Shown piece after piece: positions 53,677 through 64,000 of a DNA stretch of 64,000 nt (the first letter of the stretch is position 1; every line of letters begins with the position of its first letter). Source of the stretch: Bradyrhizobium frederickii (GTDB lineage: Bacteria; Pseudomonadota; Alphaproteobacteria; Rhizobiales; Xanthobacteraceae). Position numbers and translations under genes: made by a program. The notes beneath the pieces were generated by a model that had not been told where the DNA came from, searched no databases, and saw only the letters and a program-made list of their open reading frames with translations. The DNA lies in assembly GCF_004570865.1 (NCBI RefSeq), contig NZ_SPQS01000012.1, positions 1 through 64,000 of the forward strand, written 5' to 3'.

Positions 53677-55236
53677 TTAGGGCTTGTAGACCTCCACCGT
53701 CTGCATCATGCCCATCTCCTCATGGTTCATCATGTGGCAGTGGAGCATGTAGACACCGGTGAAATCGATGAAGCGCGAGCGGAACACGACCTGGCCGCCC
53801 TTGCGCTCCACGATCACGGAATCCCGCCATTCCGGCACGGCCAGCGCCTTACCGTTGACCGAGACGACCTGGAACGGATTGGTGTGGATGTGGAAGACGT
53901 GGTCGTCATGCTCATGCGTATTGACGATGGTCCATTCTTCGACCGCGCCCAGCTTGACCCGCTGATCGATGCGGCGGGGATCGAACTTCTTGCCGTCGAC
54001 GAAGAACTCGAACTCCTGCCAATGGCCGGCGGCATCGGCCTCCGGCGCGGTTGCCGACAAAGTCACCTTGCGACGGTTGGTGATTTCGGAATCCTTGATC
54101 GTGGCAAGCGGCGCCGGCGGCAGGGCGCGCGGCAGCTTCATGTCGATCGGCGCACCTGACACCACGACCCGCGCTAGCGGCCCGACGGGCGAAGGATGGC
54201 CCTGGTCGTAGGGCGCGGCGTTAAAGGCGTAGGTGCCGGGGCCGCCTGCCTTCACCAGAATGTCCGCGCGCTGGCCGGGCGCGATCAGGACCTGCTTGAG
54301 CGGTTGCATGGCGCCGAGCTGGATGCCGTCATAGGCGATCGCATGCAGATCGTGCTTTTCCAGGTCGAGCAGCATGTCGTCCTGATAAGCGGCATTGAGG
54401 ATGCGCCACCGCTGTACCTCGCCGGGTCGCATGTCGATCATTGGCCGGCGCTGGCCGTTGATAGCGAGAAAGCGCGTCGCGGTCTCGGGAAACAGCGTCT
54501 CGAAATTCTCGACCATGCCGTTGGCGTCGTAGACCACCTGGGTGAGCACCATGAGGCGTTCGCGGGCTGTCGCGATCTCGGGAACGTCGGCGAAATCGCC
54601 CTCGATGACGACGGCACCGACCATGCCGGAGGACATCTGAATGTCGGCGCTGCCGTGGTGATGCGGGTGATACCAGTAGGTGCCCCTCGTGTGGTCGGCC
54701 GGCAGGGTGATCTCGATGTTGTAGCTGCGGCCCGGTGCCATGGAGCGCATGACATTGTCGGCAATCCCGCTCGGGCTGGTATGCGCGCCGTGGAAATGGA
54801 AATTGGTGTTGTTGAACTGGTGCGGATGGCTGATGTCGGCCGGCATTCCATCGCGGTTCGGCGGCAGGTCGTTGATCATCTTGATGCGGAGGGTCTCGCC
54901 GGGCTTCATGCGCAGGGTCGGCCCGGGGCTGCCGCCTTCATAGGACCTGACATAGAGCCTGACGCCGCCGATCTGGCGATAGGCGTAGCCAACACGCAGG
55001 GTCGTGCTCAGCAGGCCATTGACGGACCGCCGCACCTCGGGCTCGAGCAGCGGCTGATCCATGGCGGGAACCGGGGTTTCCGGAACCATCCCCATCGTCG
55101 GCGACATGTCCGCGGTGTGGGACATGCCCGCATGGTCGTGCGCGGCATGCTGGGCCTTCGCGCTGCCTGCGACCAGCGACATCGCGCCCGCCTTGAGACC
55201 GTAATCGAGCAATTGGCGCCGCGAGAGCTTTGTCAT
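53677..55236 (-). CDS. Tat-exported multicopper oxidase
   Basis: 519 residues from the ATG at 55236 (MTKLSRRQLLDYGLKAGAMS, a Tat signal with SRRQLL). Copper ligand motifs in order: HFHGAHTSPSG, YWYHPHHHGSADI, HVFHIHTNPF and HCHMMNHEEMGMM, covering the T1 site and trinuclear T2/T3 cluster. A His/Met-rich segment (HAAHDHAGMSHTADMSPTMG) near the N-terminus may bind copper. Laccase- or CueO-like oxidase in the periplasm; substrate and partner unknown. Divergent from the molybdenum hydroxylase operon. Confidence 0.92.
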   Translation of the reverse strand: MTKLSRRQLLDYGLKAGAMSLVAGSAKAQHAAHDHAGMSHTADMSPTMGMVPETPVPAMDQPLLEPEVRRSVNGLLSTTLRVGYAYRQIGGVRLYVRSYEGGSPGPTLRMKPGETLRIKMINDLPPNRDGMPADISHPHQFNNTNFHFHGAHTSPSGIADNVMRSMAPGRSYNIEITLPADHTRGTYWYHPHHHGSADIQMSSGMVGAVVIEGDFADVPEIATARERLMVLTQVVYDANGMVENFETLFPETATRFLAINGQRRPMIDMRPGEVQRWRILNAAYQDDMLLDLEKHDLHAIAYDGIQLGAMQPLKQVLIAPGQRADILVKAGGPGTYAFNAAPYDQGHPSPVGPLARVVVSGAPIDMKLPRALPPAPLATIKDSEITNRRKVTLSATAPEADAAGHWQEFEFFVDGKKFDPRRIDQRVKLGAVEEWTIVNTHEHDDHVFHIHTNPFQVVSVNGKALAVPEWRDSVIVERKGGQVVFRSRFIDFTGVYMLHCHMMNHEEMGMMQTVEVYKP

Positions 55237-55512
55237 ATCCGCTCTGACTGGAGAGACGTCGTTCGGATCGTGCTGCATTTGAGTTTCGCTCCCGTTACCG
55301 ATCCGTCTTCAGTTTGATTCGATCCTAAGGCAAGCGCGAAAGGACGATTCCGTCCGGGAACCGCGTTGCATGCACCGGTTGTAAACGCCATGCCCCTCTT
55401 TATCGTCGCATGACGAATCACGATGGATTCGAGCTAGCATTGGCGCGGACCTTCCGGGCATCGATGCCGTGGGCATCGTGATGTCCTCGAAACTCTGTAC
55501 AAGGATCTGATC

Positions 55513-58284
55513 ATGGAGCCTTCGCGACGCGAGTTCGTGAAGTGGTTGTCGGCGGGAGGCATCTCGGTCAGTCTGTCGCATCTTGCTTCGGCGACGACAG
55601 CTCCCTTCGCAGCCCACGAGACGCTGCCCGGACGCGGCAAGTTCAATCCCGCGACCAAGGGCGCCGGCCGTGTCGACGCCGTCGCCAAGGTCACCGGCGC
55701 GAAGCTTTACGCCTCCGACTTCCGGGCCAACGATCTCGCTGGCTGGCCGCAGGCCACCTCGCACGCTATCCTGGTCCGCGCCAACGACGCCACGCACGTC
55801 TATACCGGCATGGATCTCGCGCGCCTTGGCGGCGCACTCAAGCCGTCGGTGGTGGTGACTGCCGCTGATCTCGACCGGATCGGGACGCAGGTGCCGGAAT
55901 TCTATGCGGGCGACCTGTTCTGTCCGGTCGGCAAGACGCCGCTCTATCTCGGCCAGCCGGTCGCGCTTTTGATCTTCGAAAAGTTCGACGCCTTCGACCA
56001 GGCGCGTCTCGCGCTGCGGGAGGGCACGTTCGTCCAATTCGGCGAGGAGACCGGGCCCGTCGTCGTGCCCGATTATGGGGCCTTCCGCTTCACCCGCGTG
56101 GCAGGTCCTTCGCCTGACAAGCCGGATGTCTATTCCCCGCTCCAGGCGGGCTGGGTCTCGCCCAAGAAGGTGCAGAGCGCGGCGCTGCCGGTGTGGTCAC
56201 CCCTCGCGAAGGAAATGCCGGCGGATTACGCCAAGGCGGCGAGACATGGCGAGCAGATCCGCGCCGAGCTCGCCGCAGACGACGCCTCGCTGCTGGTGCT
56301 CGACCGCGAGTTCGAGACGCAATCGGTCGACCCGATGTTCCTGGAGCCGGAATGCGGGCTCGCCTGGTACGACGGCAAGGGTGGCAATCTCGAACTGCTG
56401 CTTGGCGTCCAGTCGCCCTACGAGGCGGCGGAGTCGATCGCGCATCTGTTTGGCAAGGCCCGCGCGCCCTACAAGCCGGCGCACATCAACGCGCAGTTCG
56501 CCCATGTTGGCGGCGGTTTTGGTGGCCGCGATCACACGCCTTTCATTCTCTATGTTGCGCTCGCGGCGGTCTGCTTTGCCGGTAGGCCCGTGCGGCTGGC
56601 GCATGACCGCTACCAGCAGTTTCAGGGCGGCATCAAGCGCCACTCGATCAAGATGCGCTCGCGCATCGGCATCGATCGCGCGACCGGCAAGATCAAGGCG
56701 TTCGCCGCCGATCACGTGCTCGACGGCGGCGGGCTCGCCCATTTCTCGGCCAGCGTCGCCGTCGTCGCGGGCACCGGCGCGATCGGCATCTACGACATTC
56801 CGAAGGTCGACGTCAGGACCGTCGCGGTGCACTCGCGCGGCGTGAGCGCGGGCTCGATGCGTGGCTACGGCATCCTGCAAGCCATGACGGCGCTGGAGGT
56901 CCTGATCGACGAGGCGGCGTCCGAGCTCAAGCGCGATCCGATCGAATTCCGGCGGCGCAATGCGCTGCCCCAGAACGGTCGGACCATGACGGGCAATCCC
57001 TATATCGTCTCGGTGCGCACGCCCGAAATCCTCGACAAGCTCGAGAAGCATCCGATCTGGCAGCAGCGGGCACAATTCAAGCAGACGTCGTCGGATCGGT
57101 TGGTCGGCACCGGCGTCGCCTGCGTGACGAAAGACTATGGCTCCGGCGCGGACGCTTCGCTCGGACGCGTGGAGCTTGCCCCCGACGGCAAGATCGCAAT
57201 CTATTGCGATCATGTCGAGATGGGCAACGGCATCGGTACGGCGCTGGCCAACCGGGTCGCAAGCCATCTCGGCGTCATCGCCGATGAGGTCTCGGTCGCC
57301 CGCGTCGATAGCTATGACGTACTCGGGCTGGTCACGTCCGGCGATCCCTCCACCATGGACCAGAAAACCCAGGATGCCGCGGAGAAAAATCCGCGCTGGG
57401 TGCCCGCGATTAGCTCTCCGACTAGCTCCTCGATCGGCGCGCATGTCGGCACGCATTCCTCCGCCGAAGCCGCCCGCGTCATTTTCCGCTTCGGCCTGTG
57501 GCCGGCAGCGCTTGAGCTGTGGCGCATCGCAAGGACTGATCCGCGCGCGCGCCAACGGGACGCCGCAAGCTGGCAGAATGGGCAGCTGACCATGCCCGGT
57601 CTCGAACCGCTGGCGCTGCCGGTACTGGCCGCAACAGCTCATGCGCGCGGCTTCGTTACCGGTGCGGTTGCGCACAGCTTCTCGCGCTGGGCGTGGTCGC
57701 GGGCACGCTTTCCGCTGTTCGGCGAGCAATACCGCGCCGACATCGACGCGCTTGCGATCCGCCGCGGCAACGGTAAGTTCGAGCGGATCAACCGAACCAG
57801 CGTGAAGTTTCCGCCGACCGACAACAACCGGATCGGCACCGCCTACACCTCGATGTGCGGCACGGTCGTCCGCGTCGAGATCGAGCGCGCGACGGGCGCC
57901 TTGCGTATCGCCAAGGCCTACAGCGTGCTCGAATGCGGCACCGCACTCGTACCCGAGGTGGTGATGGGCCAGGCCCAGGGCGGCTTCGCCATGGGCGTCG
58001 GCTACGCGCTTCTGGAACATTTGCCGCCGTTCGAGAGCGGACCGGGCGGCGGCGATTGGAATCTCGGCCGCTATCTGGTCGCTCGCGGCTCCGACCTGCC
58101 GCTCCGCGATCTCGAGATCGAGATGCTAAAGCCGCAGACGCCAGACGAAGCACCGAAGGGCATGGCGGAGGTCGTGATGATCCCGATTGTGCCGGCGCTC
58201 ATCAACGCCATCTACGACGCCACCGGCCATCGCTTCCGCTCGCTGCCGGTCAGCTCAAGCCTTTTGAAGGGAGTGCTCGCGTGA
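55513..58284 (+). CDS. Xanthine dehydrogenase-type molybdopterin-binding large subunit
   Basis: 923 residues. A Tat signal (MEPSRREFVKWLSAGG) sends the enzyme to the periplasm. Molybdopterin sites: GGGFGGRDH, GSMRGYG and the C-terminal KGMAEVVMIP segment with the catalytic Glu, as in aldehyde or isoquinoline oxidoreductases. A variable middle region (AISSPTSSSIGAHVGTHSSA and nearby) is lineage specific. It overlaps the 2Fe-2S gene by 4 bases (GTGA). Substrate is an aldehyde or N-heterocycle by family; not resolved here. Confidence 0.92.
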   Translation: MEPSRREFVKWLSAGGISVSLSHLASATTAPFAAHETLPGRGKFNPATKGAGRVDAVAKVTGAKLYASDFRANDLAGWPQATSHAILVRANDATHVYTGMDLARLGGALKPSVVVTAADLDRIGTQVPEFYAGDLFCPVGKTPLYLGQPVALLIFEKFDAFDQARLALREGTFVQFGEETGPVVVPDYGAFRFTRVAGPSPDKPDVYSPLQAGWVSPKKVQSAALPVWSPLAKEMPADYAKAARHGEQIRAELAADDASLLVLDREFETQSVDPMFLEPECGLAWYDGKGGNLELLLGVQSPYEAAESIAHLFGKARAPYKPAHINAQFAHVGGGFGGRDHTPFILYVALAAVCFAGRPVRLAHDRYQQFQGGIKRHSIKMRSRIGIDRATGKIKAFAADHVLDGGGLAHFSASVAVVAGTGAIGIYDIPKVDVRTVAVHSRGVSAGSMRGYGILQAMTALEVLIDEAASELKRDPIEFRRRNALPQNGRTMTGNPYIVSVRTPEILDKLEKHPIWQQRAQFKQTSSDRLVGTGVACVTKDYGSGADASLGRVELAPDGKIAIYCDHVEMGNGIGTALANRVASHLGVIADEVSVARVDSYDVLGLVTSGDPSTMDQKTQDAAEKNPRWVPAISSPTSSSIGAHVGTHSSAEAARVIFRFGLWPAALELWRIARTDPRARQRDAASWQNGQLTMPGLEPLALPVLAATAHARGFVTGAVAHSFSRWAWSRARFPLFGEQYRADIDALAIRRGNGKFERINRTSVKFPPTDNNRIGTAYTSMCGTVVRVEIERATGALRIAKAYSVLECGTALVPEVVMGQAQGGFAMGVGYALLEHLPPFESGPGGGDWNLGRYLVARGSDLPLRDLEIEMLKPQTPDEAPKGMAEVVMIPIVPALINAIYDATGHRFRSLPVSSSLLKGVLA

Positions 58285-58805
58285 CGACCCTCAGCCTCAC
58301 CATCAACGGCCAGAAGCACGGCCCGATGGACGTCCGCGACGATCTCTCGATGAACGATTTTCTGCGCGAGATGCTCGGCATGACCGGGACCAAGTTCGGC
58401 TGCGGCGCCGCACAATGCCTGAGCTGCGCCATCATCGTCGACGCGCCCGATGGCACCAGCTACACCAGCCCGACCTGCATCGCGCCGGCCGTGAACTTCG
58501 ACGGCAAGTCGATCCGCACCGTCGAGGGTCACGCCAAGGACGGCCAGCTCTCGGCGCTGCAAAAGGCCTTCGTCGATCATTTCGCGTTTCAGTGCGGCTA
58601 CTGCACGGCGGGCTTCCTCAACGAAGGACAGGTCCTGCTCGAACGTCTCGCACGCGCGCCGGTGCCGCGCGAGGCTCTGGAGCAGACGATCGCGGACGCC
58701 CTTGATGGCCATCTCTGCCGCTGCACCGGCTACATCAAATATCACGAGGCGGTGCGCGACGTGATCCTCGCCGATTCAAACCGCTACCTCATCGCCACCA
58801 AGTGA
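58281..58805 (+). CDS. 2Fe-2S subunit of the molybdenum hydroxylase
   Basis: 174 residues from GTG 58281, which overlaps the large-subunit stop. Plant-type cluster: [10 protein letters not shown] with the further Cys at SPTCIAP; second cluster: CGYCTAGF and CRCTGY, the standard four-helix domain. It carries electrons from the Mo centre to the cytochrome. No signal peptide, so it is probably co-exported with the Tat-targeted large subunit (hitchhiker export). Confidence 0.92.
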
Positions 58806-58813
58806 CACGAGCC

Positions 58814-59431
58814 ATGTTCTCTGACGCGCGCTTCAAGACGATGGCCGTGATCGCGGCGCTCGCCAGCAGCCTTTGCGCGGGCTACGCGGCCTCCGAAACA
58901 GCGAGCCATGTCCTGGCGTCGCCCGACAGCTTTGCCAACATCACCGATGTCGAAAAGCGCTCGGCGGCGATCTTCACCGAGCTCGGAAAGGTTCTGACGC
59001 ACCCGCGCTGCACCAACTGCCATCCGGCCGGCGACAGCCCGCGGCAAGGCGACAATCCCCGCCTGCATCAGCCGCCAGTCACGCGCGGCGCTGACGGCCA
59101 CGGGCTCGAGCCGATGCGCTGCCACACCTGCCACCAGAAGGCCAATTTCGAGCCCGGCCGCATGCCCGGACATCCCGAATGGCATCTCGCCCCGCGCGAG
59201 ATGGCCTGGGAGGGCAAGACCGCCGGCGAGATCTGCGAGCAGATCAGGGACCCCAAGCGCAATGGCGGGCGCAAGGTGGAAGAGCTGATCGACCACATCG
59301 GCAAAGACACGCTGGTCGGCTGGGCCTGGCAACCCGGCTTCGGCCGCTCGCCCGTACCGGGCACGCAACAACAGGCCGGCGCGCTGGTCGAGGCCTGGGT
59401 GAAGGCGGGGGCGGCCTGTCCGGCACCGTGA
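58814..59431 (+). CDS. Diheme c-type cytochrome, electron acceptor of the molybdenum hydroxylase
   Basis: 205 residues from the ATG at 58814; a GTG at 58802 would overlap the 2Fe-2S stop and add 4 residues. An N-terminal signal ([19 protein letters not shown]) precedes two heme motifs, CTNCH and CHTCH, in helical sequence ([20 protein letters not shown]). Third gene of the operon, so it most likely passes electrons from the 2Fe-2S subunit to the respiratory chain. Confidence 0.88.
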
Positions 59432-59518
59432 TGAGGCTGGCGCAAGTCCTCATAATCGTCGGCTTGAATGCTGAACGGACACGGCCCATGTCCGCGCGGG
59501 CCAATCGAGTTTGTGAGC

Positions 59519-60223
59519 CTACGCCCTTCGCATGAGCTTGAGCGACGCCGCGAGCCGCAGGCTGCGCTTGCCCGCCAGCGCGATGCCTTCGAGCTCGCCG
59601 CTGTCTTCCGTGCAGGTCCCCGAGAAGCCGATCCCGACCTCGAAGCCGCCGAACACGGGATTCTCGCCCTTCGCCGGCGTGTGCTCCTGGTTCAGCATCT
59701 CGCCCTTCCAGCGGCCGTCCGCGGAAGAATAGGAGCCGAGATAATAGAAGAACGCATCGCCGCCGAGGATGCGGCCGTCGATCAGCAGCATCACGCCGGA
59801 GAGGCCGGCCTCGACGCCGTCGAGCGCGCGCAGGCTCATCCCGTAGAGCCCGTTGGCGATGCCGCCCTGCCCGATCGTGCCGCGCGGCGGCAGCGCGCCA
59901 TCGTCGAGCCGGGTGAGATTGGCCCAGAAATGCGCGCCCGGCATGGTGTCGGCGCCACCCTGCAGGCGGATCTGATCGCCGATCAGCCGCCCTCGCGCAC
60001 CGATCCTGGCGACGTCCGCGCCCATCAGCGGCTTGTAGTTGGGATCGAGATTATGCCGCTCGGTGATCACCTCGGCGACGATCTCGCCGTCACGCTCGGC
60101 ATAGGTGCCGAGATGCGCGAAGCCCGAATTGCCGCCCAGCATCTTGCCGTCATGCAGGCACATGATGCTGCGTCCGAACGCGTCGTTGACGCCGTATTCA
60201 ACCTTGTAGAGTCCGTCCAGCAA
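59519..60223 (-). CDS. Double GrlR-like domain protein, paralog 1
   Basis: 234 residues from TTG 60223 (MLDGLYKVEYG). Two copies of a GrlR-like fold, residues 1-115 and 130-234, each with a DGLY(S/K) start and a GG...FYYLGSY/FAHLGTY core; the second has GVMLLIDGRILGGDAFFYYL. GrlR is a small regulator of type III secretion in enteric pathogens; this tandem form is not clearly linked to that process. It shares the architecture and much of the sequence with 62559-63260. The upstream ATG at 60271 would add 16 residues without homology. Not obviously in an operon. Confidence 0.72.
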   Translation of the reverse strand: MLDGLYKVEYGVNDAFGRSIMCLHDGKMLGGNSGFAHLGTYAERDGEIVAEVITERHNLDPNYKPLMGADVARIGARGRLIGDQIRLQGGADTMPGAHFWANLTRLDDGALPPRGTIGQGGIANGLYGMSLRALDGVEAGLSGVMLLIDGRILGGDAFFYYLGSYSSADGRWKGEMLNQEHTPAKGENPVFGGFEVGIGFSGTCTEDSGELEGIALAGKRSLRLAASLKLMRRA

Positions 60224-60340
60224 CGTCTTGAACCCGCAAAATCGGAAAGCAAATTGCCGGCTACCTAGCATCGCCGCCGCATTGAAGCCACCGGCTTTTC
60301 CGCGCAGCGCCGGCCACGAAACGCACGTCCGCCACGATGC

Positions 60341-60440
60341 CATTATGCCCCTGTTTTGCCCGACGGGTCAAATCGACTTCGAAAAATCCGCATGCGTGTG
60401 ATTTCAACGGCTTGGCTACTGTGCATGGGGTTGTTTTTCG
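60341..60440. repeat. Dispersed repeat family E, copy 2
   Basis: TTATGCCCCTGTTTTGCCCG at the left and GGCTACTGTGCATGGGGTTG at the right match the ends of the copy at 16111-16210, in the same orientation. Confidence 0.8.
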
Positions 60441-60508
60441 ACTTTTGTCTCCGGCTCGCGAAAAAGATCAGGCTTGAACCGGCCTCCGCCGAGGCGCGAC
60501 CAACCGGC

Positions 60509-60967
60509 ATGGATACGAGACCGCAATCAGCCGAGGACGAGCTCAGCGCGATCATCGCCAGCGCCGCAAAGCAGCAGCTGCTCGATGCGGCATACGGGCT
60601 CTGGCGCCAGCGCTACCGCCTCGACACGATCGCGTGCCGTCCGACCGCCGAAGAGATCCGCATCAACCGCACCCTCACCCCGGAGCAGTTCGGCGCCAAG
60701 TACCGCTGGGAACGCGAGCATGCGCATGAGGGGCCGATGTTCGGCTATGTGAAGCGTGCCCATCCGCGCGCCGACGATCAGGCGATCCGGCAGGCGATCA
60801 TCACCGCCGTCAAATTCGAAGACGAGTACAACAAGCACTTCGACTGGAACGGCGATTTCTGGGATTGCGTGGTGCGCGCGGTAGCACAAGCCGCGCGAAT
60901 ATATCCCGACTATCTCGAGACCACCTACCGCGACGCCCGCAACGATCTCGCCTACTACATGAAGTGA
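60509..60967 (+). CDS. Soluble protein of unknown function
   Basis: 152 residues from the ATG at 60509. It is helical and charged, with SAIIASAAKQQLLDAAYGLW, TLTPEQFGAKYRWEREHAHE and a C-terminal FDWNGDFWDCVVRAVAQAAR segment. The frame extends up to 60356 but that part is repeat E, not protein. No known family, though it resembles conserved Bradyrhizobium proteins. Confidence 0.65.
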   Translation: MDTRPQSAEDELSAIIASAAKQQLLDAAYGLWRQRYRLDTIACRPTAEEIRINRTLTPEQFGAKYRWEREHAHEGPMFGYVKRAHPRADDQAIRQAIITAVKFEDEYNKHFDWNGDFWDCVVRAVAQAARIYPDYLETTYRDARNDLAYYMK

Positions 60968-61002
60968 GCCGGCCGGGCTCTGCCCTGACCGGGAGATGTG
61001 GA

Positions 61003-61824
61003 TCAGAAGCACAGCGTGGTGACGAGCTTGCCCTGCTTGTCCTTGATCGCATAGGGACAGCGAATGCGCTCCAGCGCCTTCTTGGCGTCCTCGTCGCCGA
61101 GCGCCGCGGCACGCTCGTAATAGGCCTTCGCGGCGTCCTTGTCCTTGGGGCCGCCCCGGCCTTCCTGTGCGAAGGCACCCATCCGCTCCAATGCACCGGG
61201 ATGGTTTTGTGCCGCCGCCTTCTCGAACAGCGCACGCGCCGCGACCTCGTCCTTCGCGCCACCCGAGCCTTCGGAGAGCATCAGGCCGAGCTGGTACTGC
61301 GCTTCCGCGTTGGTCTCGGCAGCCCTGCCGAGCAGCGCGCGCGCCTGCGCGGGATCGGCCGGCGCGGCGCCACCTGCGCCGCCGAGCGCGGCGAGATTGC
61401 TGACGCCACGGGGGTTGCCGGCCTGCGCCGCCTTCTCGAACAACTTTCGCGCTTGCGCCTCGTCCTTGGCAACGCCCGCGCCGGTGGCATAGGCCACGCC
61501 GAGTTCGACCATGGCCGCGCTAGATCCCTTGTCGGCGGCCTTGCGCCAGGCCGCGATCGCCTCTCCGGTCTGCCGGTTGGCCGCATAGGCGCGGCCGAGC
61601 GCGAACATCGCGCGCCGCGAGGATGGCGCGGCCTGCTTGCAGAACCTGATCGCCGTTGCAATGTCGGAGGCCGCGATCTCCGCCACGCCCCTCACGTCGG
61701 CCGGCTTGTCGGGATCGCTGGGATCGGCGGCGACCCGGTCGCACAGAACGAGATCGGCCGATTGCGCCTGCGCCGTCAGGGGCACGGCGAGCGCGAACAG
61801 CATGGCAAGGAGGTAAGTCCGCAT
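61003..61824 (-). CDS. Secreted Sel1-repeat protein
   Basis: 273 residues from the ATG at 61824. A signal peptide (MRTYLLAMLFALAVPLTAQA) is followed by four to five Sel1-like units of about 36 residues such as AMVELGVAYATGAGVAKDEAQARKL (in two pieces) and YQLGLMLSEGSGGAKDEVAA. The Sel1 fold mediates protein contacts in the periplasm. It ends with an unusual KDKQGKLVTTLCF. Last of the apparent operon with the binding protein and GrlR-like protein. Confidence 0.85.
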   Translation of the reverse strand: MRTYLLAMLFALAVPLTAQAQSADLVLCDRVAADPSDPDKPADVRGVAEIAASDIATAIRFCKQAAPSSRRAMFALGRAYAANRQTGEAIAAWRKAADKGSSAAMVELGVAYATGAGVAKDEAQARKLFEKAAQAGNPRGVSNLAALGGAGGAAPADPAQARALLGRAAETNAEAQYQLGLMLSEGSGGAKDEVAARALFEKAAAQNHPGALERMGAFAQEGRGGPKDKDAAKAYYERAAALGDEDAKKALERIRCPYAIKDKQGKLVTTLCF

Positions 61825-61856
61825 GAGCACCACGTTGCGTCCCCGTTCCGGCAAAT

Positions 61857-62540
61857 TCAAGGCTCGAGTCCCGATTGGCGCAGCACGGGCTCGACATCAG
61901 GCGATGCCAGATAGCGCAGCAGCCGGTCGGCGGCTTCCGCATGTTTCGCATTCGCCATGCGGCCAGCGGAGAACACGGCCGGCGTCTGCAATTCGTGCGG
62001 GATCGGTCCCACCACCTCGATGCCTTCGACCTGCTTCAGCTCGCTGATCTGCTGCACGGCAAGATCGGCCTCGCCGCTGACGAGGCGCTGCGCCGTGAAC
62101 CCCTGCTCGACGATGCTGGCCCTGGCGTTGATCTCGGCCGCGATCCCCATCCGCACGATCAGCTGCGCGAAGTAGACGCCGCTCGCGCCCAGCCGCGAAT
62201 AGGCAACGGACCGCGCCGCGAGCAGCGACTTGCGCAGCGCCGCTTCGCTGCCGATGTCGGGCTGCTTCTGCCCGGCCCGCACCGCGATGCCGACATAGGA
62301 GCGCGCCAGATCGACCGCGCCATCGGCAAGCACGCGGCCCTCCGCGATCACCTCGTCCAGCCCCTCGCGCGTGAGGATCACGAGATCAGCGGCCTCGCCG
62401 TCGCGCAAGCGCTTCAGCAGGGCCAGGGTCGGTGCGAAGTCCGCGTCAACATGGATGCCTGTTTCAGCCTCGAAGGCGCCGGACAGGCTCCGCATCGCGC
62501 CCATCAGGCCGAGCGTCGAAAGCATGCGGACTTTTTCCAT
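61857..62540 (-). CDS. ModA/Wtp-like substrate-binding protein without signal peptide
   Basis: 227 residues (ATG 62540, GGGAAG upstream). The type II periplasmic binding fold is suggested by MGAMRSLSGAFEAETGIHVD, ADLVILTREGLDEVIAEGRV and SVAYSRLGASGVYFAQLIVR, with IPHELQTPAVFSAG near the end, as in molybdate-type binding proteins. The N-terminus starts directly in the first strand, so it is probably cytosolic and might be an intracellular sensor. No transporter genes are adjacent. The gene begins 18 bases after the GrlR-like gene. Confidence 0.8.
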   Translation of the reverse strand: MEKVRMLSTLGLMGAMRSLSGAFEAETGIHVDADFAPTLALLKRLRDGEAADLVILTREGLDEVIAEGRVLADGAVDLARSYVGIAVRAGQKQPDIGSEAALRKSLLAARSVAYSRLGASGVYFAQLIVRMGIAAEINARASIVEQGFTAQRLVSGEADLAVQQISELKQVEGIEVVGPIPHELQTPAVFSAGRMANAKHAEAADRLLRYLASPDVEPVLRQSGLEP

Positions 62541-62558
62541 CTGCGCTTCCCGTCACGA

Positions 62559-63260
62559 TCAGGCGCGGTGCATCAGCTTGAGCGCGGCGGTCAGGCGCAG
62601 GCTGCGCTTGCCGGCAAGCGCGGCCGCCTCCATCACCGCCTCTTCCGCGTCGTAGCGACCGGAGAAGCCGATGCCGACCTCGTGGCCGCCGAAGATCGGA
62701 TCGTCCTTGGCCGGCGTGTGCTCCTGGTTGAGGATCTGGCCCTTCCAGCGGCCGTTCGCGGCGGTGTAGCTGCCGAGATAGTAGAACGAGGCATCGCCAC
62801 CGAGGATGCGGCCCCGGTTGAGCAGCATCACGCCGGTGAGGCCGCCGTCGAGACCGTCGAGCATGCGCAGATGGATGGAATAGAGACCATCGGCGATGCC
62901 GGCTTCGCCGATGCCACCGGCAATCGGCACCTCGTCGTCCGTGATCGGTGTCATCACCGACTGGAAGGGAATGCCCGGCAGCTCCTTCAGTTCGCCCTTG
63001 AAGCGATAGAGGTCGCCATCCGCCCAGCCCTTGGCGAGCAAGGTGGCGTCGTCAGTGCCCGCCATGGCGCGGTAGTTCGGATCGGGATTATGGCGGACGG
63101 TGCTGATCACGATATCGACGCCGCTGTCGGTCTTCTCATAGGTGCCGATATGGGCGAAGGCCGAATTGCCGCCGAGCATCTTGCCATTGCCGGCATGCAT
63201 CACGCTGCGGCCGACGGCGTCGCCGAGCTGAAATTTCACCTTGTAGAAGCCTTCAAACAC
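62559..63260 (-). CDS. Double GrlR-like domain protein, paralog 2
   Basis: 233 residues from GTG 63260 (GGGGA upstream). Two GrlR-like domains, residues 1-105 and 125-230, with MFEGFYKVKF and the ADGLYSIHLRMLDGLDGG and GVMLLNRGRILGGDASFYYL cores. It is the closest relative in the window of 59519-60223 (for example both have HTPAK..N/DP(V/I)FGG and GIGFSG). The next gene starts 18 bases downstream. Role inferred at best as a ligand-binding or regulatory protein. Confidence 0.75.
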   Translation of the reverse strand: MFEGFYKVKFQLGDAVGRSVMHAGNGKMLGGNSAFAHIGTYEKTDSGVDIVISTVRHNPDPNYRAMAGTDDATLLAKGWADGDLYRFKGELKELPGIPFQSVMTPITDDEVPIAGGIGEAGIADGLYSIHLRMLDGLDGGLTGVMLLNRGRILGGDASFYYLGSYTAANGRWKGQILNQEHTPAKDDPIFGGHEVGIGFSGRYDAEEAVMEAAALAGKRSLRLTAALKLMHRA

Positions 63261-63375
63261 CGGCCGTGTCCCCGGGCCTCGCGCGCATCGCAGGACATTC
63301 TATCGCGCTTTCAGCGGCAATGGACAAGTGTCGCGCGGCCGGGCCAGGCAGTTACCAGACGACCGTCATCCAAAT

Positions 63376-63412
63376 GCAAAAATCCGCCGGAGCCTTGCAG
63401 CTCCGGCGGATT
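63376..63412 (-). terminator. Rho-independent terminator of glnII
   Basis: AATCCGCCGGAGC (63381-63393) and GCTCCGGCGGATT (63400-63412) form a perfect 13-bp stem with a 6-base loop; on the minus strand it is followed by TTTTTGC. It begins 45 bases after the glnII stop. Confidence 0.92.
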
Positions 63413-63456
63413 GAGCACCAACCCGGGCCAGCCCCCCAGCCCGGGCCGGGAGGATC

Positions 63457-64000
63457 TTAGGCCGCGGCCTTCTTGTCGGTCGGCACGGAGGCGATCGTCT
63501 TCAGGATCTGCGAAGCGATCTGGTATGGGTCGCCCTGCGAGTTCGGACGGCGGTCTTCCAGATAGCCCTTATAGCCGTTGTTGACGAAGGAGTGCGGAAC
63601 GCGGATCGAGGCGCCGCGGTCGGCAACGCCGTAGCTGAACTTGTTCCACGGCGCGGTCTCGTGCTTGCCGGTCAGACGCTTGTCGTTGTCCGGGCCGTAG
63701 ACGGCGATGTGGTCCATCAGGTTCTTGTCGAAGGCCGCCATCAGCGCCTCGAAATATTCCTTGCCACCCACGGTGCGCATGTACTCGGTCGAGAAGTTGG
63801 CATGCATGCCCGAGCCGTTCCAGTCGGTGTCGCCGAGCGGCTTGCAGTGGAACTCGATGTCGATGCCGTACTTCTCGGTCAGGCGCAGCATCAGGTAGCG
63901 GGCCATCCACATTTCGTCAGCGGCCTTCTTGGAGCCCTTGCCGAAGATCTGGAATTCCCACTGACCCTTGGCGACTTCCGCGTTGATGCCTTCATGGTTG
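63457..64000 (-). CDS. glnII: Glutamine synthetase type II, 3' end
   Basis: Makes glutamine from glutamate and ammonia with ATP. The frame runs off the right edge, so only about 180 C-terminal residues are present. Visible GSII sequence: GINAEVAKGQWEFQIFG at the edge, EMWMARYLMLRL, CKPLGDTDWNGSGMHANFST (the ammonia/glutamate site), GKHETAPWNKFSYGVADRGA and IRVPHSF. Rhizobia carry this eukaryote-like enzyme beside GlnA. The terminator at 63376-63412 closes the transcript. Confidence 0.97.
   Translation of the reverse strand, partial: NHEGINAEVAKGQWEFQIFGKGSKKAADEMWMARYLMLRLTEKYGIDIEFHCKPLGDTDWNGSGMHANFSTEYMRTVGGKEYFEALMAAFDKNLMDHIAVYGPDNDKRLTGKHETAPWNKFSYGVADRGASIRVPHSFVNNGYKGYLEDRRPNSQGDPYQIASQILKTIASVPTDKKAAA

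Follow-up and report, generated by a model that had tools for sequence, protein, structure and literature searches.

What might a soil bacterium do with three closely spaced genes, the first encoding a protein with two GrlR-like domains in one chain, the second a binding protein that lacks a signal peptide, and the third a protein with Sel1 repeats? The question arises near the right end of a window (meaning here the whole stretch of DNA analyzed, 64,000 nucleotides in length) from Bradyrhizobium frederickii, covering positions 1-64,000 of contig NZ_SPQS01000012.1 in a draft genome of 8.29 Mb (GCF_004570865.1). The original prediction took the three genes to be an operon and the pairing of the first two products to suggest an intracellular ligand-sensing unit. 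An open-access literature search, judged by its listings, found no work on this gene set. The features that bear on the question are these:

62559..63260, minus strand: DG1, a protein of two GrlR-like barrels (233 aa from a GTG start; by eye, without a signal peptide)
61857..62540, minus strand: SBP, a leaderless SBP_bac_11 protein (227 aa; subgroup pocket motif GxSG...QQxSE)
61003..61824, minus strand: Sel1-repeat protein with a hydrophobic, signal-like N-terminus (273 aa from ATG; 285 aa from a possible TTG at 61860)
61857..61860, minus strand: TTGA, in which the SBP stop overlaps the possible TTG start of Sel1
63299..63327, minus strand: promoter-like TTGTCC-17-GATAGA, 5' of DG1 (a lead only)
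63381..63412, minus strand: intrinsic terminator (stem and T run) after glnII and before DG1
59519..60223, minus strand: DG2, a second double GrlR-like protein (234 aa; 56% identical to DG1, in a separate clade)
60356..60967, plus strand: unnamed open reading frame between Sel1 and DG2, present in part of the relatives
63457..64000, minus strand: 3' part of glnII, for glutamine synthetase II (named by eye from sequence), the conserved upstream neighbor

Read along the minus strand, the right end of the window has the order glnII, DG1, SBP, Sel1 and then, past the opposite-strand frame, DG2. The prediction of three close minus-strand genes with a paralog nearby is confirmed, as the open reading frames lie where they had been placed, and the identities given to them are supported, by Pfam for the binding protein and the Sel1 protein and by fold for the GrlR likeness. 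The spacing is operon-like, as had also been claimed, with 18 nt between DG1 and SBP and 32 nt between the SBP stop and the Sel1 ATG.

The surroundings were also surveyed. Rfam has no match in positions 55000-64000 of the window, and PADLOC has none for the five proteins tried. An origin in defense or phage was rejected, with PADLOC blank for those five proteins and a single PHROG group, of unknown function, matching the Sel1 protein. For the opposite-strand frame at 60356-60967, the matches in relatives show 52-96% identity and are often pieces only, while a family search gave only sub-threshold matches, to a PHA granule family. Adjoining DG2, at 55513-59431 of the window, are genes (named by eye) for a molybdenum-hydroxylase-like large subunit, a 2Fe-2S-like subunit that overlaps its end, and a CxxCH protein; in most of 80 related loci, the fetched flanks have no match to these. 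A general link to the molybdenum hydroxylase (55513-58284, named by eye) was also rejected; in the fetched flanks of 80 related loci, some of them short, the large subunit was matched in 2 and the neighboring heme-type protein in 7.

Those 80 loci were found with DG1 as the query; a loss of DG1 is, of course, therefore invisible in them. The triple DG1-SBP-Sel1 is intact in 63 of the 80, so gene order is conserved across Bradyrhizobium, as the original prediction requires (4 of the 63 were flagged by script for DG1, solely through extra DG-like fragments nearby). In 60 of the 63 loci where both genes are intact, the SBP stop lies 32 nt from the Sel1 ATG; of the 70 loci with a measured DG1-SBP gap, 33 have 18 nt. 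The junction between SBP and Sel1 reads TTGA in 65 and ATGA in 2 of 70 Sel1 loci (67 of 70 together, SBP-less loci included). CCT encodes the final proline of SBP in 65 of 70 cases, although it makes up just 20 of the 523 other proline codons. The 12 codons before the Sel1 ATG have mean entropies of 0.66, 0.60 and 0.56, which gives no codon periodicity; this stretch may be either translated or a signal read as nucleotides.

Selection, too, has left its mark. Compared with the window, the median dN/dS is 0.13 for DG1 (71 comparisons), 0.18 for SBP (68) and 0.12 for Sel1 (60). Thus, the three genes are under purifying selection and are not chance reading frames. DG1 of the window is 97% identical to DG1 in two named Bradyrhizobium records. 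A diverged genome of the same genus (G485) has the whole glnII-DG-SBP-Sel1 order, with the gene in the DG1 place falling outside the DG1 clade, weakly, in a quick tree. One record labeled Frankia sp. RB7 (L064) has a Bradyrhizobium locus, its DG1 89% identical, and is probably mislabeled or contaminated.

Does a conserved cluster imply that its parts need each other? SBP is absent from 7 of the 80 loci and partial or truncated in 3 more, DG1 being kept in all of them. Sel1 is missing from 4 loci, one of which has a partial SBP as well; 1 further locus has it truncated, 2 have it with a broken frame, and in 1 it lies past the contig end. On a tree of glnII and DG1, the intactness of SBP changes at least 6 times and that of Sel1 at least 5, these being minimum counts. 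Five of the SBP-less loci (L025, L036, L047, L053 and L056) keep the last codons of SBP, L050 keeps the first 17, and L070 has no clear remnant; in L054, SBP has suffered an in-frame deletion. The SBP-less state as the original one was rejected, on these remnants, for most of the 7 clean SBP-less loci. One early absence of SBP is possible, from genome G453, where the order is glnII-DG1-Sel1 and SBP is missing without a clear remnant. Genome G475 has SBP and lacks Sel1; in G501, SBP is split into two pieces, and the stretch that was fetched contains no Sel1. In three genomes from two other genera (G035, G107 and G094), DG1-like genes occur without glnII, SBP or Sel1 in the 13.6-18 kb fetched.

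An obligate three-gene system was rejected as the default on these grounds, with SBP and Sel1 repeatedly lost and the parts occurring apart. Because the parts are often found or lost separately, this looks like a neighborhood more than one machine. It is a real, conserved Bradyrhizobium cluster of unstudied proteins that are probably separable modules rather than a single sensing machine. Across genera, the surroundings of DG1, glnII or SBP repeatedly include an SDR-like gene and, at part of the loci, also single C-type GrlR-like and tyrosine-phosphatase-like genes, all named by eye (L158, L159, L160, L011, L149, L249 and L250); these surroundings are read as an older neighborhood into which the cluster fits.

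If the cluster is a neighborhood, its constant neighbor must be considered. In all 80 loci glnII lies upstream of DG1, at a distance of about 1.1 kb in one of them, and G453 and G485 share this placement. The cluster might thus be an accessory of glnII with a link to nitrogen, its expression coming from read-through of the terminator or from shared signals, and might tune glutamine synthetase II or its regulation. Adjacency is the evidence for this, and we hold the idea to be doubtful. The stem and T run of a glnII terminator separate the two in 73 of 79 loci, and in G035, G107 and G094 the stretches fetched around the DG1-like genes lack glnII. A degenerate TTGTCC-17-GATAGA precedes DG1 in 62 of 79 loci, as counted without a shuffled control, and was not among the predictions of a general promoter scan. 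In an excerpt of one published study, blr4169 is named glnII (PMC6515984). We guess that the next genes bear the names blr4170 to blr4172.

The second gene also occurs outside the cluster. Pfam SBP_bac_11 (PF13531) scores 144.5 bits on SBP, against a cut-off of 25, over profile positions 4-226 of 227. The sequence retrieves ModA structures (E 1.5e-6), and the ModA equivalog TIGR01256 gives 33 bits, below its cut-off of 62.5. A structure prediction was poor (mean pLDDT 56.5). The claim that this protein lacks a signal peptide is well supported, as 0 of 70 relatives with an aligned N-terminus have an in-frame start more than 9 codons upstream, making all 70 leaderless. No ABC permease or ATPase genes adjoin SBP, whose neighbors are DG1 and Sel1. 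At the positions of the oxyanion ligands of E. coli ModA (S12, S39, A125, V152 and Y170), SBP has, as read off the alignment, G11, T38, S120, G147 and Q164, with none of the five identical. Its own pocket is conserved among 25 relatives, with S120 and Q164 each in 24 and G121, Q163 and E167 in all 25.

Relatives of SBP (E<=1e-15) occur in 85 of 148 sampled genomes of the family and in 33 of 40 genera. From outside the genus, 19 SBP loci (L130-L148) were inspected. A signal-like leader is seen in L140 and L148, L134 is undecided because of a long upstream frame, and the remaining 16 have no leader-like hydrophobic stretch. DG1 and DG2 find no match in the flanks (up to 1.5 kb) of any of the 19. 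Thus, this leaderless binding protein exists widely in its own right. Outside the genus, the nearest SBP (62% identical) is that of G100; its neighbor is an SDR-like gene, a Sel1 gene lies 3.3 kb off in the same orientation, and the 16 kb fetched hold no GrlR-like match. Genomes G067 and G065 hold 19 and 18 relatives of the SBP_bac_11 subgroup, respectively, and six places in G067 include both leaderless and leadered ones.

The third protein has its own distribution. Pfam Sel1 (PF08238) scores 76.4 bits, against a cut-off of 30.7, in 3 stretches. The N-terminus is hydrophobic, with a top 12-residue hydropathy of at least 2.12 in 70 loci, and by this sequence feature the protein looks exported. 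At E<=1e-60, it occurs in 49 of 148 sampled family genomes, one copy each, and in 14 of 40 genera. Thirty of these 49 loci were fetched. Seven, all of the same genus as the window, have DG1-SBP-Sel1; six, all of genus g23, have a double GrlR-like gene directly upstream and no SBP; one (L248, from G112) has a partial GrlR-like match upstream; and in the remaining 16, no such match lies within 1.5 kb. The DG-Sel1 pair is found in 6 of the 11 g23 genomes that gave matches. The DG gene and Sel1 are separated by roughly 1 kb in G014, and in G004 the DG gene is followed by a fragment of Sel1. Thus, the pair of GrlR-like and Sel1 genes recurs more widely than the triple does. The GrlR-like stretch in L248 (positions 1009-2289, genus g25), 39% identical to DG2 and directly upstream of the Sel1 gene, hints at wider pairing still.

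These distributions bear on the original idea of a single sensing unit. In that arrangement, SBP, loaded or empty, docks on DG1, which controls a regulator, while Sel1 reports or acts in the periplasm. The tight, conserved order and spacing are what such a unit should look like, as is the stop/start overlap between SBP and Sel1. SBP is leaderless in 70 of 70 relatives and has a DG gene next to it in all 11 genomes that the family sample includes from the genus (each has the close SBP, and 7 of them the Sel1 protein); the same order returns in G485. However, SBP is lost or broken in 10 of 80 loci that keep DG1, and Sel1 in 5 (absent in 4, truncated in 1), or 7 with the two broken frames. DG1-like genes live without either partner in G035, G107 and G094, all 19 SBP loci outside the genus are without a GrlR-like neighbor, and the third protein looks exported, which does not sit well with a unit said to be intracellular. 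The claim of an intracellular ligand-sensing unit is therefore not supported in that form, and we consider one integrated unit unlikely.

What, then, is DG1? The claim of GrlR likeness stands by fold, and by sequence it stays short of significance. GrlR (PF16518) is the sole Pfam family found in DG1 and DG2, at 15.3 and 21.1 bits, below the gathering cut-off of 26.8. Run over the genome of the window, the GrlR model gives no match at E<=0.1, missing even DG1 and DG2. Among 23 DG1 and DG2 proteins that were aligned, it matches 16 with E values no higher than 1 (the best 9e-5), and among 14 halves and singles it matches 10 (the best 1.6e-4). A profile match to GrlR structures was not found in PDB sequences, as sequence and profile searches with HMMER, in place of HHpred, did not retrieve them; the original prediction had named a missing match of this kind as grounds for refuting it. 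An EDED motif is reportedly a feature of GrlR, going by the title of a reference; read by eye, that exact string is absent from DG1 and DG2.

The AlphaFold2 model of DG1, built from 23 sequences (mean pLDDT 86.6, pTM 0.84), has 8 strands per half, folded as two barrels; the predicted structure thus gives the tandem that had been claimed. A Foldseek search of the PDB puts a TbpB lobe at rank 1, with an rmsd of 15 A. The best single-domain matches are GrlR (4kt5 and 2ovs), at ranks 2, 3 and 5, each spanning one whole barrel, with E values of 8e-4 to 1.6e-3 and TM scores of 0.74-0.76 over the target. In this model, the GrlR likeness of DG1 is carried by structure, without a significant sequence score. 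A caution comes from VIA-align, where GrlR reaches Z scores of 12.8 and 12.3 and designed barrels up to 13.8. As designed barrels align as well as GrlR does, this is a common fold, and no function follows from the match by itself.

Also among the VIA-align matches are small-molecule-binding barrels, including fatty-acid-binding proteins, an avidin and Cap15, at Z of about 6.5 to 11. These suggest that DG1 could be a lipocalin-like pair of ligand-binding barrels whose neighbors are unrelated to it. We think this quite unlikely, as GrlR, the closest natural match over a full domain, works by protein contact, according to part of a published account (PMC9979310).

Where did a protein with two such barrels come from? 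A tree of half-domains and single-domain proteins (60 rows, 113 columns) separates C halves and C-type singles from N halves and N-type singles with support of 100/98. Here, the N and C labels of the singles record which half of the model each matched, and the tree is unrooted; the program cautioned about long branches that meet and about a row that is a fragment, and placing the four labels takes 5 changes, the minimum being 3. Since the halves group with different single-domain subfamilies, they are old and different, not recent copies of each other, and a recent tandem duplication within DG1 is not favored. The double barrel may be a fusion of two singles or, the tree being unrooted, an ancient duplication followed by splitting; of the two, we favor fusion.

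The double form is confined in the sample. A double-length profile at E<=1e-30 finds it in 20 of 397 sampled genomes of the order, all in the family of the window. The window's own genome has 7 places that match DG1 at E<=1, two of them double and five single or partial. The DG1-like genes of G035 and G107 fall with DG1 at 100/99; that of G094 does so weakly and is unresolved in a quick tree.

The explanation that we prefer, while giving it somewhat less than an even chance, is that DG1, SBP and Sel1 form one transcription unit of separable modules. Transcription would start between the glnII terminator and DG1, and the three genes would be co-transcribed. DG1 would be a cytosolic pseudo-dimer, with two GrlR-like barrels per chain, and its job would most likely be that of GrlR, as a protein-binding anti-activator or adaptor that holds some regulatory protein other than GrlA. 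SBP would be a cytosolic binder of a small anionic or carboxylated metabolite, or its buffer, and may report it. The Sel1 protein would be exported and serve as a periplasmic scaffold. The conserved SBP-Sel1 spacing and the stop/start overlap argue against modularity here, suggesting that at least those two are expressed together for a reason. A bolder version, in which the covalent hetero-dimer of DG1 holds a non-GrlA regulator in the cytosol and metabolite-loaded SBP is the switch that releases it, making a transporter-less sensor in one operon, we regard as a long shot.

The hetero-tandem of GrlR-like domains is the most interesting part of the locus. In enteric pathogens, from which GrlR is known, it is a dimer of barrels and keeps an activator silent. 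A family of doubles drawn from two subfamilies, in soil bacteria and with the known partner absent from this genome, would pose the question of what barrels of this kind control in non-pathogens. Binding proteins without a leader are another class that has received little study, and some genomes of the family seem to carry a good number of them; should they bind metabolites in the cytosol, they would be sensors or buffers without an assigned role.

How close are these proteins to systems already known? The Sel1 protein shares its repeats and its signal-like N-terminus with periplasmic Sel1-repeat proteins of the ExoR type, but it scores 45.4 bits with the ExoR equivalog NF045484, below the cut-off of 450, and common repeats are enough to explain that score. 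SBP shares a full-length SBP_bac_11 domain with ModA and its kin, whose structures its sequence finds, but differs from ModA in having no leader, no transporter neighbors, no equivalog score over the cut-off, and no identical ligand residue. For the halves of DG1, the nearest relatives are the N-type and C-type single-domain GrlR-like proteins of its own bacterial family, which are, however, single barrels; we know of no function for them.

GrlR itself is the negative regulator of the LEE of enteropathogenic E. coli. Its GrlA/CaiF partner (PF07180) was searched for in the one genome that carries the window and was not found there, while a control search found it in E. coli. Without a GrlA/CaiF protein in the genome, the known mechanism of GrlR cannot simply carry over to DG1. 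In Sinorhizobium fredii, a gene named grlR is repressed by mannitol, as stated in an excerpt of one report (PMC9952627). According to part of another, GrlR is a homodimer of barrels and forms a GrlR2-GrlA complex (PMC9979310). DG1 differs from it in its sub-cut-off score, in the missing partner, and in having two unlike barrels per chain where GrlR is a homodimer of single-domain chains. It shares with GrlR the 8-stranded barrel and the pairing of barrels seen in the GrlR dimer, and GrlR is its best natural single-domain structural match. Since GrlR works as two paired barrels, DG1 looks like that dimer made covalent, with unequal halves.
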